In this document: one piece after another, positions 3,368 to 10,517 of the stretch
Layout of the letters: every line of letters begins with the position of its first letter
Position numbering within the stretch: the stretch's first letter is position 1
Assembly: GCA_000710935.1 (NCBI GenBank)
Contig: BAYV01000015.1
Coordinates: 1-64,000 of the forward strand
Origin: Iodidimonas nitroreducens
GTDB taxonomy: Bacteria; Pseudomonadota; Alphaproteobacteria; Sphingomonadales; Rhodothalassiaceae
Reading direction: 5' to 3'
Length of the DNA stretch: 64,000 bases
Notes under the pieces: model-generated
The model's database searches: none
The model's input: only the letters and a program-made list of their open reading frames with translations
What the model was told of the DNA's origin: nothing
Position numbers and translations under genes: made by a program

Positions 3368-4708
3368 TCAAAGGCCCGCTTCGGCTAAGGCGCGGGCCTG
3401 CCGGATGGCCAGACTTTCCACCGAAAAATCTTCGATGATCCCTTGGAAAAGCTGATACCAATTCACCTCGGCCCGCAAATGCAAAAAGACCCCGCCAAGG
3501 CCGATGGCCGCGCGATCCATGAACACAAATTCCCGGGGCGGGGTGACGGGGCCCAGTTCTTTCAGCTTTTTATGCACTTTTGCCGCGGTTTCGGCACCAT
3601 ATTGGCCGGGCTGTTCGGCGGCATTGATCAGCCGGGGGCGATCTTCCATCAAGGGCGCATAGAGAAAAGTTGCCCAGATATTGAGCACATCGATCAATTC
3701 GTCACTGAGATTTTGAAATCCCCAGCTTTCATAGGCATGGGCGGCCAGATCGCGATCCCCATCGCGCAAAGCCCGGTACAGATCGATCACCCCGCCCACA
3801 AATGCCGGGGGAAACACCCGAACACAGCCAAAATCCAGCAGATTGATGGCGAGATCATCCCGCGCCGTATAATTGCCCAGATGGGGATCGCCATGGATCA
3901 CCCCATAGCGATGAAAAGGAATGTACCAGGCCCGAAACAGATGGATCGCCAAACGGTTGCGCGTTTCCAGATCGGCATCCTTGAAGTGCAAAAGCGGGGA
4001 GCCCTGAAGCCAGCCCATGGTAAGCAGCCGATCGGTGGATAAATCGGGATAAAGGGCGGGCACATGCACCTGCGGTTCATCGGCGAGCATGGCACGATAA
4101 AGGGTGATGTGCCGGGCCTCGCGCCCATAATCCAATTCTTCGCGCAGGCGGGCGGCCAGTTCCTCGCGAATATGGCGGGTATCGATGGAACGATCATAGC
4201 GTTTGTAAAGGGAAAGCAGCCAATCGAGCTGCGCCAGATCAGCCTCCACCGTGCTCGCCATATCAGGATATTGCAGCTTCACCGCCAGATCCTCGCCCCC
4301 CGGCCCGATGGCCCGATGCACCTGCCCCAAAGAAGCGGCGGCACAGGCTTCGCGTTCGAAAGATTGGAAGCGTTCGCTCCATCCCGACCCCAATTCGGCG
4401 CGCATTCTGCGTTTCACAAATTGCGCCCCCATCGATGGCGCCTGGGCCTGCAATTGCGCCAGTTCGGCCGCCATATCCCGGGGCAGAGCATCGGGGATGG
4501 TGGATAAAATCTGGGCAATCTTCATCACCGGCCCCTTCAGGCTGCCCAGCGCCTGCCGCAGATCGGCCCCCAAAGCCTGCTGATCCACCGCCCGGCCAAG
4601 CATCCGGCCACTGGCCATCCGCGCCCCAACACCCCCCATGGAACGCCCCACCCGGGCATAACGCCCCACCCGCGCGCTCAATCTGTTTCTTTCCGTGTCA
4701 TCCGTCAT
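3368..4708 (-). CDS. ABC1/UbiB-family atypical kinase (AarF/COQ8-like)
   Basis: Protein of the ABC1/ADCK/UbiB family (446 aa from the ATG at 4708), atypical kinase-fold ATPases linked to ubiquinone biosynthesis and lipid homeostasis. Visible motifs in order: a KxGQ-like segment KGPVMKIAQ near residue 60, the VKLQYP nucleotide-binding lysine region, the catalytic segment HGDPHLGNY and the metal-binding LLDFGCVR. The canonical KxGQ glycine is replaced (KIAQ). A TTG ten codons upstream is an alternative start; neither has a strong ribosome-binding site. It stands alone between the pnt operon and a divergent response regulator, so it is not tied to a ubi cluster here. Confidence 0.88.
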   Translation of the reverse strand: MTDDTERNRLSARVGRYARVGRSMGGVGARMASGRMLGRAVDQQALGADLRQALGSLKGPVMKIAQILSTIPDALPRDMAAELAQLQAQAPSMGAQFVKRRMRAELGSGWSERFQSFEREACAAASLGQVHRAIGPGGEDLAVKLQYPDMASTVEADLAQLDWLLSLYKRYDRSIDTRHIREELAARLREELDYGREARHITLYRAMLADEPQVHVPALYPDLSTDRLLTMGWLQGSPLLHFKDADLETRNRLAIHLFRAWYIPFHRYGVIHGDPHLGNYTARDDLAINLLDFGCVRVFPPAFVGGVIDLYRALRDGDRDLAAHAYESWGFQNLSDELIDVLNIWATFLYAPLMEDRPRLINAAEQPGQYGAETAAKVHKKLKELGPVTPPREFVFMDRAAIGLGGVFLHLRAEVNWYQLFQGIIEDFSVESLAIRQARALAEAGL

Positions 4709-7619: not shown

Positions 7620-7957
7620 GAAGGGAATCTCCTGATGAGGGGCTTTGCCATTTACGGCCAGAAAGGATCGCTGCCGATCCCATAATGGCGGGGGACCATA
7701 GCGACATGGCCAAAGACATGCAATGCCATGCATAAAACGCGTTCATGATGAGGTACAAAGAGGCGACTTGAAGTCTTTGTGAGAACAGGCATTTTACTGC
7801 TGACAACAATGTGAAATCGATTCCTCTTCAACTTCGGCCCCTAACACCTTAGTTTAACACTGTGTCGGAGCAAAGGGATTGCGTGCCCTTTGCCATACCC
7901 GGCAACAGATAACCTGATAATCAGGTTTGATATGCCTATTATATTGGAGAAGATCTT
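7620..7957. promoter_or_regulatory. Divergent promoter region gapR / bufferin operon
   Basis: A 338-bp gap between divergent genes, with no convincing small gene. It holds three inverted repeats: GACTT-G-AAGTC at 7765-7775, CAAAGGG with CCCTTTG at 7871-7892 (8-bp loop), and a perfect 17-bp palindrome at 7911-7927. A TATTAT element lies near 7937 and a GGAGA ribosome-binding site at 7945-7949 sits 8 bases before the bufA start. The repeats are candidate operators or mRNA hairpins; no known consensus was matched. Confidence 0.55.
7911..7927. promoter_or_regulatory. 17-bp palindrome upstream of bufA
   Basis: AACCTGATAATCAGGTT is a perfect inverted repeat (8-bp arms around one A). It lies 30 bp before the bufA ATG and just upstream of the possible -10 element, a good place for an operator of a dimeric regulator. 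Regulator unknown. Confidence 0.5.
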
Positions 7958-8233
7958 ATGAAAACGCTGACGTCAAAAGCCACCACACTCGCCCTTGCCG
8001 GTGCGCTTGCCGCCGCCGTTTCCGCCACCACCGTGCAGGCTCAGGATTGGGCCAAGAAGGCCGAAAAATGCTATGGCGTTGCCAAAGCCGGCCAGAATGA
8101 TTGCAAAGCCGGTCCCGGCACTTCATGCCAGGGCACGTCTAAAGTGGATGGCCAGGAAAATGCATGGATGTTCGTTCCTAAAGGCGTGTGCGACAAGCTG
8201 GCCGGTGGCAGCCTGACTGAGCCCAAAGCCTGA
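7958..8233 (+). CDS. bufA: Bufferin precursor, DUF2282 family (BufA1-like)
   Basis: Secreted peptide precursor (91 aa). N-terminal signal peptide with likely cleavage after VQA at residue 28. The mature part carries four cysteines at 38, 49, 57 and 78 in the DUF2282 pattern EKCYG...NDCK...SCQG...KGVC. In the bufferin family, cysteines of the precursor are converted to thiooxazole groups by the DUF692 enzyme and the product is exported to the periplasm to sequester copper; this is established for Caulobacter bufferin and inferred here. The AWMFVPKG segment before the last Cys is typical. First gene of a four-gene operon; GGAGA site 8 bases upstream. Confidence 0.92.
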
Positions 8234-8241
8234 GGCCATTG

Positions 8242-9141
8242 ATGCCTTTGGCACAACAGCCTGACAAACCGATGCCGCATCGCGCTGGCATCGGTTTGAA
8301 AGTCGAGCATTATCGGGACGTTCTGAACGGACGTCCCGATCTCGGTTTTTTCGAGGTTCATCCCGAAAATTATATGCTTGCGGGCGGTCCGCGCCTTCAG
8401 GCTCTTCAGGCCATTCGCGCCCATTATCCCCTCAGCCTCCATGGTGTGGGGGCGTCATTGGGATCGAAAGATCCGGTGGATCGCGATCATCTTGATCGCC
8501 TCAAGGCCCTGCAGGATAGGTTCGAGCCTTTTGTGGTCTCCGAACATTTATCCTGGAGCCGCTTTGAAGATCATTTCCTGTCAGATCTGCTGCCCCTGCC
8601 CCTCACCCGCGATGCTTTGGCGGCCATGGCGGCCAATGTGGGCCGGATGCAGGATGCCCTTGGCCGCACGATTCTGATTGAAAATCCATCCACCTATCTT
8701 GAATTTACCCATGCCGAGATGAGCGAGCCGGACTTTTTAAGTGAACTGGTGAAGGAAACCGGCTGCGGGCTGCTTTTGGATATCAATAATATCCATGTGT
8801 GCGCCAGCAATCACGGCTTTGATCCCCATGCCTATCTGGCGGCCATCCCCGGTTCTGCCATCGGCGAAATTCATATGGCGGGCCATGCCATTGATCGCTA
8901 TGGCGCGCGGGATATTCGGATCGATACCCATGGGGCACCGATCTGCGATGATGTCTGGGCGCTTTATGATCATGCCATCGGGCTTTTCGGCCCACGCCCC
9001 ACCTTGATCGAACGCGATGACAATCTGCCGCCCTTCGCTGATCTTCTGGCCGAAGCCCAAAAGGCCGAACGCATCATGGCGGGCAAGGCATCCCCCTCTT
9101 TCAAACAGCCCGACCATTTGGCTGAGGCGAATCATGGCTGA
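8242..9141 (+). CDS. bufB: Bufferin-modifying enzyme BufB, DUF692/MNIO family
   Basis: Multinuclear non-heme iron dependent oxidative enzyme (299 aa) with a TIM-barrel fold, which modifies cysteines of the BufA precursor. The family signature is complete: FFEVHPENYM, LHGVGASLGS, VVSEHLSW, LIENPSTYLEF, GLLLDINNIHVCASN, GEIHMAGH, RIDTHG and TLIERDDN, which supply the histidine, aspartate, glutamate and asparagine metal ligands. The ATG at 8242 is preferred over a TTG one codon upstream; it follows the bufA stop by 8 bp. The end overlaps bufC by 8 bp, indicating translational coupling. Cytoplasmic, acting on the precursor before export. Confidence 0.92.
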   Translation: MPLAQQPDKPMPHRAGIGLKVEHYRDVLNGRPDLGFFEVHPENYMLAGGPRLQALQAIRAHYPLSLHGVGASLGSKDPVDRDHLDRLKALQDRFEPFVVSEHLSWSRFEDHFLSDLLPLPLTRDALAAMAANVGRMQDALGRTILIENPSTYLEFTHAEMSEPDFLSELVKETGCGLLLDINNIHVCASNHGFDPHAYLAAIPGSAIGEIHMAGHAIDRYGARDIRIDTHGAPICDDVWALYDHAIGLFGPRPTLIERDDNLPPFADLLAEAQKAERIMAGKASPSFKQPDHLAEANHG

Positions 9142-9946
9142 AACCGGGTCTTTAGCGGCTGTGCAATCGGCTTTTGCCGCTGCCCTTGAAGGGCGTGGAG
9201 ATGACGCCATTGCAGCGATGATCAAACCGATGGATGGGGTGCCCGCGGGCATCCAGCTCGATATTTATCGCAATAATATCCACGCTGCCCTCACCCGGTC
9301 CTGTCAGGGGCTGTATCCGGCCCTTCATGCCCTTGTGGGCGAAGGCTTTTTCCACCAGATGATGCGCGATTATCATCGCCTGCACCGCCCAGCACATGGG
9401 CGCATGGTGGATTATGGCCATGATCTGCCAGCGTTTTTGGAAAGCGATGATTTTCGCAATCGCTATGAAGCGGCCAACCGCCATCCCTATTTTGCCGATA
9501 TCGCCCGGCTCGAACTCGCCAGTTTCAAAATGCTCAGCGCCCCCGAAATGGCCCCGCTTGACCCTGCCTTTCTGGCCAACATCCCCCCGCAAGATGTGGA
9601 ATCCCTGCGTTTTGATCTGGCCCCTTATGCCTGCCTTCTGGCCAGCCCCTGGCCTGTTCTTGATATCTATAAAATGGCCATGGCGGCGGCTGAGGGCGAT
9701 GATAGCGTCAACGCGCCCGCCCTTGCCGATAATCCTGCCCGCCTGCTGATTATCCGACTTCACGGAGATGTTGAGATTATCCCCTTGTCCTATGGGGACT
9801 TCTCGTTTCTCATGAGCCTCGATGCCGGGGCGGCTCTGGGCGAAAGTGCGGCGGCCGCCTTTGCATCACAAAATGATTTCGATCTTTCTTCAGTCCTTAG
9901 CCAAGCGCTATCAATGGGTGTTTTTGCATCCTTCACGGAAAAATAA
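9134..9946 (+). CDS. bufC: BufC, DUF2063 partner of the MNIO enzyme
   Basis: DUF2063 domain protein (270 aa from ATG 9134). The N-terminal part has the family pattern: an FAAAL helix, DIYRNNIHAALTRSC, LYPALHALVGEGFF, then VDYGHDLPAFLES. This domain is thought to bind the precursor and assist the DUF692 enzyme; in bufferin operons it is the standard third gene. A frame open from 9017 lies inside bufB and was ignored. The C-terminal half (from about residue 150) is the less conserved region found in long BufC proteins. Overlaps bufB by 8 bp and precedes the DoxX gene by 26 bp. Confidence 0.9.
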   Translation: MAETGSLAAVQSAFAAALEGRGDDAIAAMIKPMDGVPAGIQLDIYRNNIHAALTRSCQGLYPALHALVGEGFFHQMMRDYHRLHRPAHGRMVDYGHDLPAFLESDDFRNRYEAANRHPYFADIARLELASFKMLSAPEMAPLDPAFLANIPPQDVESLRFDLAPYACLLASPWPVLDIYKMAMAAAEGDDSVNAPALADNPARLLIIRLHGDVEIIPLSYGDFSFLMSLDAGAALGESAAAAFASQNDFDLSSVLSQALSMGVFASFTEK

Positions 9947-9972
9947 CCCGTGTCATCATCAGGAGACCGCAT

Positions 9973-10458
9973 ATGACCAACTCGCACATGGGCTCAGACA
10001 GCCTTGTGAATAAAGCCCGATCCGCCTATGGCCTGTTCAATCTCACCCCCGAATGGCTGGTTTTGCTGGTGGCCCGCATCGCCATCATCCACACATTCTG
10101 GTCATCGGCCAGCAACAAGCTGGCAGGTGTTTTTGAACTGAAGCCTTTTCAGGCCATGCTGTTTGAAAGCGAATTCGGCATGCCCTTCCCCGAGGTTACG
10201 GCTTTATTGGCGGGCTGGGCGGAATATGCTTTGCCTTTCCTTTTGCTGATCGGGCTGGCCAGCCGCCTTGCCGCTGCGGGCATTTTGTTCATGACCCTGC
10301 TGATCCAGTTTTATGTGTTCTGGAGTGCCGATGATTTTTGGGTGATGATGCTGCAAACTCACATTTTCTGGGCCGTGCCCATGCTGGTCATCATGAAATA
10401 TGGCGCTGGCAGCCTGTCTGTTGATGCCCTTTTGAAGAAGACCGTGTTCGCCCGCTGA
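9973..10458 (+). CDS. bufD: DoxX-family membrane protein (BufD)
   Basis: Small integral membrane protein (161 aa) with about four hydrophobic helices (LVLLVARIAIIHTFW, FPEVTALLAGWAEYALPFLLLIG-type core, LFMTLLIQFYVFW, IFWAVPMLVIM). The pattern around RIAIIHTFWSSASNKLAG and GWAEYALPFLLLIGLASR fits DoxX. It is the usual fourth gene of bufferin operons; its exact task (membrane redox or export support) is not established. The ribosome-binding site CAGGAG lies before ATG 9973. A strong terminator at 10485-10517 ends the operon. Confidence 0.9.
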   Translation: MTNSHMGSDSLVNKARSAYGLFNLTPEWLVLLVARIAIIHTFWSSASNKLAGVFELKPFQAMLFESEFGMPFPEVTALLAGWAEYALPFLLLIGLASRLAAAGILFMTLLIQFYVFWSADDFWVMMLQTHIFWAVPMLVIMKYGAGSLSVDALLKKTVFAR

Positions 10459-10484
10459 GCCGCTTTTTTTCCTGAAAACGATCG

Positions 10485-10517
10485 GGCCGGGGGTTTAAAA
10501 TCCCCGGCCTTCGTTTT
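10485..10517. terminator. Bidirectional terminator, bufferin operon / DUF1244
   Basis: GGCCGGGG (10485-10492) pairs perfectly with CCCCGGCC (10502-10509) around an AT-rich loop, followed by TTCGTTTTT. It lies between the convergent bufD and DUF1244 genes and overlaps the stop codon of the latter. Confidence 0.85.

Follow-up and report, generated by a model that had tools for sequence, protein, structure and literature searches.

Organisation of the bufferin locus

The stretch of DNA analysed here (the window, 64,000 nucleotides from Iodidimonas nitroreducens) carries four genes on its + strand, which follow each other in the order bufA-bufB-bufC-bufD. The bufA gene (7958..8233) encodes a bufferin 1 precursor of 91 aa, bufB (8242..9141) a multinuclear non-haem iron oxidative enzyme (MNIO) of 299 aa, bufC (9134..9946) an MNIO partner protein of 270 aa, and bufD (9973..10458) a DoxX-family membrane protein of 161 aa. 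The spacings between them had been given as 8, -8 and +26 bp, and the ORF coordinates confirm these values to the base. A strong terminator had also been claimed, and the operon is indeed closed by a terminator-like hairpin on the + strand (10484..10510; 12 pairs, 8 of them GC), which has a counterpart in Iodidimonas muriae and overlaps the 3' end of the convergent DUF1244 gene. The neighbourhood is likewise common to the window and I. muriae, with gapR lying divergently upstream and the DUF1244 and prepilin peptidase genes downstream.

All four profile searches returned the families named in the original prediction (DUF2282, DUF692/MNIO, DUF2063 and DoxX), and membership of the four genes in these families is far beyond chance. 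BufA matches Pfam DUF2282 at 87.8 bits (E 4.7e-25, cut-off 22.4). BufB matches Pfam MbnB_TglH_ChrH (PF05114) at 350.8 bits (cut-off 25) and NCBIfam NF050167, MNIO_BufB, at 379.9 bits (cut-off 310); it is 79% identical to BufB of I. muriae, the nearest named relative. Among 98 homologues, eleven of its residues (H67, H102, D115, E147, D180, N183, H211, D228, H230, E257 and D259) show more than 97% conservation, and they can be aligned with 3bww and partially with the MbnB and TglH chains; that the iron ligands and catalytic acid are among them is established for the family.

BufC scores 66.7 bits against Pfam DUF2063 (cut-off 27.2). Sequence searches of BufA and BufC against the PDB gave no meaningful match, and for BufC a fold search was therefore performed with its AlphaFold model (pLDDT 94.6). 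The best PDB fold matches were TglI of the TglHI complex (8hci, 8hi7) and NGO1945 (3dee), the latter being the founder of DUF2063. The model thus points to BufC being a DUF2063 plus RRE-type MNIO partner protein (PME-type 1). BufD matches Pfam DoxX (PF07681) at 51.7 bits (cut-off 23.6), while its score against the NCBIfam HvfX family, 57 bits, is under the cut-off of 80. A DoxX gene is frequent, though not obligatory, in Buf1 clusters, and among 80 related loci the order ABCD was found in 68, ABC in 8 and AB in 4, some of the last being short contigs. At one related locus (L092, 2-1278), a second MNIO and DUF2063 pair lies directly upstream of the bufA operon.

The gene order is the bufferin-type order that had been predicted, being the same as in published Buf1 clusters (PMC12452194, PMC3511200). 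The closest parallel is the bufferin 1 operon CC3254-CC3257 of Caulobacter crescentus, in which the four families and their order are alike, although Caulobacter has two bufferin operons and Iodidimonas only one. The gig (gold-induced genes) operons of Cupriavidus metallidurans and Legionella are also bufferin clusters (PMC12452194), present in other bacteria; their regulation in Legionella points to an influence of RpoS, and no box is described (PMC5413113). Fontiphorin, oxazolin and gonophorin, the EGKCG captophorins, likewise combine an MNIO and a DUF2063 partner with a signal-peptide precursor that receives 5-thiooxazoles, but their precursors contain EGKCG repeats with many modified cysteines, whereas BufA of Iodidimonas has a four-cysteine DUF2282 domain (PMC13097082). 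The locus is thus a complete and ordinary Buf1 bufferin (captophorin) cluster, whose gene content and chemistry are already known. The wiring is less common, with an upstream box where Caulobacter has its sigma-F promoter and with a terminator-like hairpin in the second gene.

The BufA precursor and its predicted modification

BufA is 89% identical to its I. muriae counterpart, and another genome of the same genus carries a bufA sequence identical to that of I. muriae. The N-terminus, read by eye, shows a basic start, a hydrophobic stretch and a VQA motif, from which a Sec signal peptide cut after A28 is predicted. Of the NCBIfam bufferin precursor models only BufA2 fired, at 25.1 bits and thus below its cut-off of 60, which is to be expected because BufA is a Buf1-type precursor.

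The four cysteines (residues 38, 49, 57 and 78) lie exactly where the original prediction placed them, and the alignment shows all four to be kept in nearly all homologues. As modification sites, however, they are not equivalent: in published Buf1 only the central cysteine pair is modified, and the outer two are joined by a disulfide (PMC12452194). It follows by analogy that only C49 and C57 should be converted to 5-thiooxazoles, and that C38 and C78 should form a disulfide. Formation of a 5-thiooxazole means the loss of 4 H per cysteine and gives absorption near 305 nm (PMC13097082). For residues 29-91, the mature peptide if cleavage takes place after A28, the calculated monoisotopic mass is 6543.12 Da unmodified and 6533.04 Da with two thiooxazoles and the disulfide, that is about 10 Da lighter; two plain disulfides would give 6539.09 Da, and four thiooxazoles 6526.99 Da.

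Some homologues depart from this pattern. The homologue at locus L070 (4729-4968) has a tyrosine at the position of the first conserved cysteine (EKYYG), and therefore the outer disulfide could not form in that protein. Another bufA homologue (L108, G039:C6:952778-952939) has an in-frame TAG right after the second cysteine and is possibly a decayed copy. In an alphaproteobacterial MAG, three tandem bufA-like precursor genes precede one MNIO gene (L011, 152-1881).

Very probably, then, the locus is a functional Buf1-type bufferin operon, and published homologues suggest how it may work. BufA would be synthesised with its Sec signal peptide, and BufC would bring it, still in the cytoplasm, to the iron enzyme BufB, which would turn C49 and C57 into 5-thiooxazoles by four-electron oxidations. 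The modified peptide would be exported and then cut after A28, the C38-C78 disulfide would close in the periplasm, and the peptide would chelate excess copper there, with BufD (DoxX) as an accessory membrane protein. A profile search of the Iodidimonas genome found DUF2282 and MNIO to be represented by a single gene each. With no second precursor or MNIO enzyme to confuse the outcome, a deletion or a mass measurement at this single-copy operon would be unambiguous, which makes it a clean test case.

Two other readings of the peptide have to be weighed against this scheme. On one hand, BufA might be exported unmodified, with plain disulfides C38-C78 and C49-C57, while BufB and BufC are inactive or act elsewhere. 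The four cysteines are able to pair and their modification is a prediction; yet the conserved residues of BufB are kept, BufC is intact, and the whole operon is intact and single-copy, in a genome whose only DUF2282 and MNIO genes are these, so we give this possibility hardly any weight. On the other hand, a modified peptide might mainly handle some soft metal other than copper, or an oxidant (gold, cadmium or chromate), with copper not being the physiological signal. The Caulobacter operon was first identified as chromate- and cadmium-induced and is sigma-F dependent (PMC3511200), its counterparts in Legionella and Cupriavidus respond to both gold and copper (PMC5413113), and the control element in Iodidimonas differs from the known one. 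Nevertheless, those members that have been characterised confer protection from excess copper (PMC12452194), and we consider a role centred on another ligand rather unlikely. Other Iodidimonas strains have an iodide-oxidising multicopper oxidase; a connection with it was also considered and rejected, as the genome contains no Cu-oxidase_3 match.

A hairpin within bufB

Within bufB lies a further hairpin on the + strand (8312..8340), which was not part of the original prediction and is formed by a 12-bp stem with a CGAG/CTCG extension and a TTTTTT run after it (to 8346). It is as strong as the operon terminator. It could possibly act as a transcription attenuator or as an mRNA-stabilising stem, as the comparison of related sequences suggests; that an attenuator at this position would hold the precursor mRNA above the enzyme mRNA is a reasonable guess, drawn from two related species.

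We regard it as evenly balanced whether the hairpin has such a role or is just a by-product of codon use. The stem sits in the codons of the conserved RDVL-GRPDLGF stretch, the family tendency in the homologous region is weak (mean z -0.5), and the structure is carried by only two close species, a third genome of the genus (L091) having a weak structure with z -1.8. Codon use by itself, however, does not readily reproduce the fold: in either species, none of 300 synonymous-codon shuffles folded as well (z -5.0 in the window and -3.5 in I. muriae). Moreover, a search of the window's + strand for stems of at least 10 pairs, 6 or more of them GC, with T5 following no more than 14 nt away found only two, this hairpin and the operon terminator. 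No known riboswitch or RNA family was matched in Rfam.

Candidate control region upstream of bufA

In Caulobacter, the operon is controlled by sigma-F and NrsF through a GTAACC-N16-CGAA promoter, and neither NrsF nor this promoter was found for the Iodidimonas operon. The Iodidimonas genome (98.7% complete) gave no match to the NrsF profile PF06532, while the control search found NrsF of Caulobacter. The promoter was absent from the 160 bp upstream of bufA in both Iodidimonas and I. muriae, while the same scan found it in the Caulobacter and Brevundimonas loci. Sigma-F control of this operon was thus rejected, and a copper response through sigma-F/NrsF therefore cannot be assumed.

At 158 bp upstream of bufA there is a candidate control box on the + strand (7800..7834), which the original prediction had not included and whose core is TGAC-AACAAT-GTGA (7801-7814). 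Many genomes of the order have such a box ahead of bufA, where it apparently takes the place of the sigma-F promoter. The pattern T[CG]AC-N5-7-GTGA occurs in 35 of 71 distinct bufA upstream regions, whereas Markov shuffles gave 1.2 (maximum 6 of 200), but as it was picked after some of the counted sequences had been viewed, this count taken by itself makes the evidence look stronger than it is. A weight matrix served as the independent test; it was trained on 29 sites from other genomes, with Iodidimonas left out, and scanned on the window and related loci. Of all positions on either strand of the 64-kb window, the site at 7800 scored highest, and in I. muriae the site at 4544 (locus L003), at the same distance from bufA, ranked first in its locus. 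The score of the window site is 7.5, versus 22-47 for most training sites, and it is therefore a diverged copy.

The fuller form of the box reads C-TCAC-YAAnTC-GTGA-N5-ATAT-N-ATTTT. A second set comprised 84 upstream regions; a sigma-F site was present in 33, a loose box in 13 and both in none, although in some of these 13 the loose box may be a chance occurrence. A second exact copy of the Iodidimonas form was not found in the genome, and thus no regulon could be based on that form. No dedicated regulator gene was seen adjoining the boxed operons at the nine loci examined.

It might be argued that the box belongs to the divergent gapR, or that it is a housekeeping promoter element and not a bufferin control site, as gapR is the upstream gene in Iodidimonas. 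In other genomes, however, the box still precedes bufA where the upstream gene encodes a same-strand TPR protein. Furthermore, the strict pattern occurs about once per genome, with 9 occurrences in 14 genomes of one family, 8 of which lie before bufA. We thus find such an explanation quite unlikely, and infer from the sequence comparisons that the operon may be controlled through the box at 7800 rather than by sigma-F.

This regulatory box is the one lead of some novelty at the locus. Tentatively, and with doubt somewhat outweighing confidence, we propose a second, so far undescribed mode of bufferin control, in which a dedicated metal- or stress-sensing DNA-binding protein would act at TCAC-N6-GTGA...TATnATTTTT in bacteria without sigma-F control, supplemented in Iodidimonas by an attenuator in bufB that would keep precursor mRNA above enzyme mRNA. 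The shared box offers a starting point from which the regulator of those bufferins that lie outside the sigma-F group could be traced, the cited bufferin literature containing no such regulator.

One more element was considered in this region, a perfect 7-bp inverted repeat (7911..7927; AACCTGA-TAA-TCAGGTT, AACCTGATAATCAGGTT) just upstream of the bufA ribosome-binding site. Its role as a conserved operator was not supported, since it occurs only once in the genome and is not conserved in I. muriae, where a different inverted repeat, GATTATCT-N7-AGATAATC, lies at about the same place.
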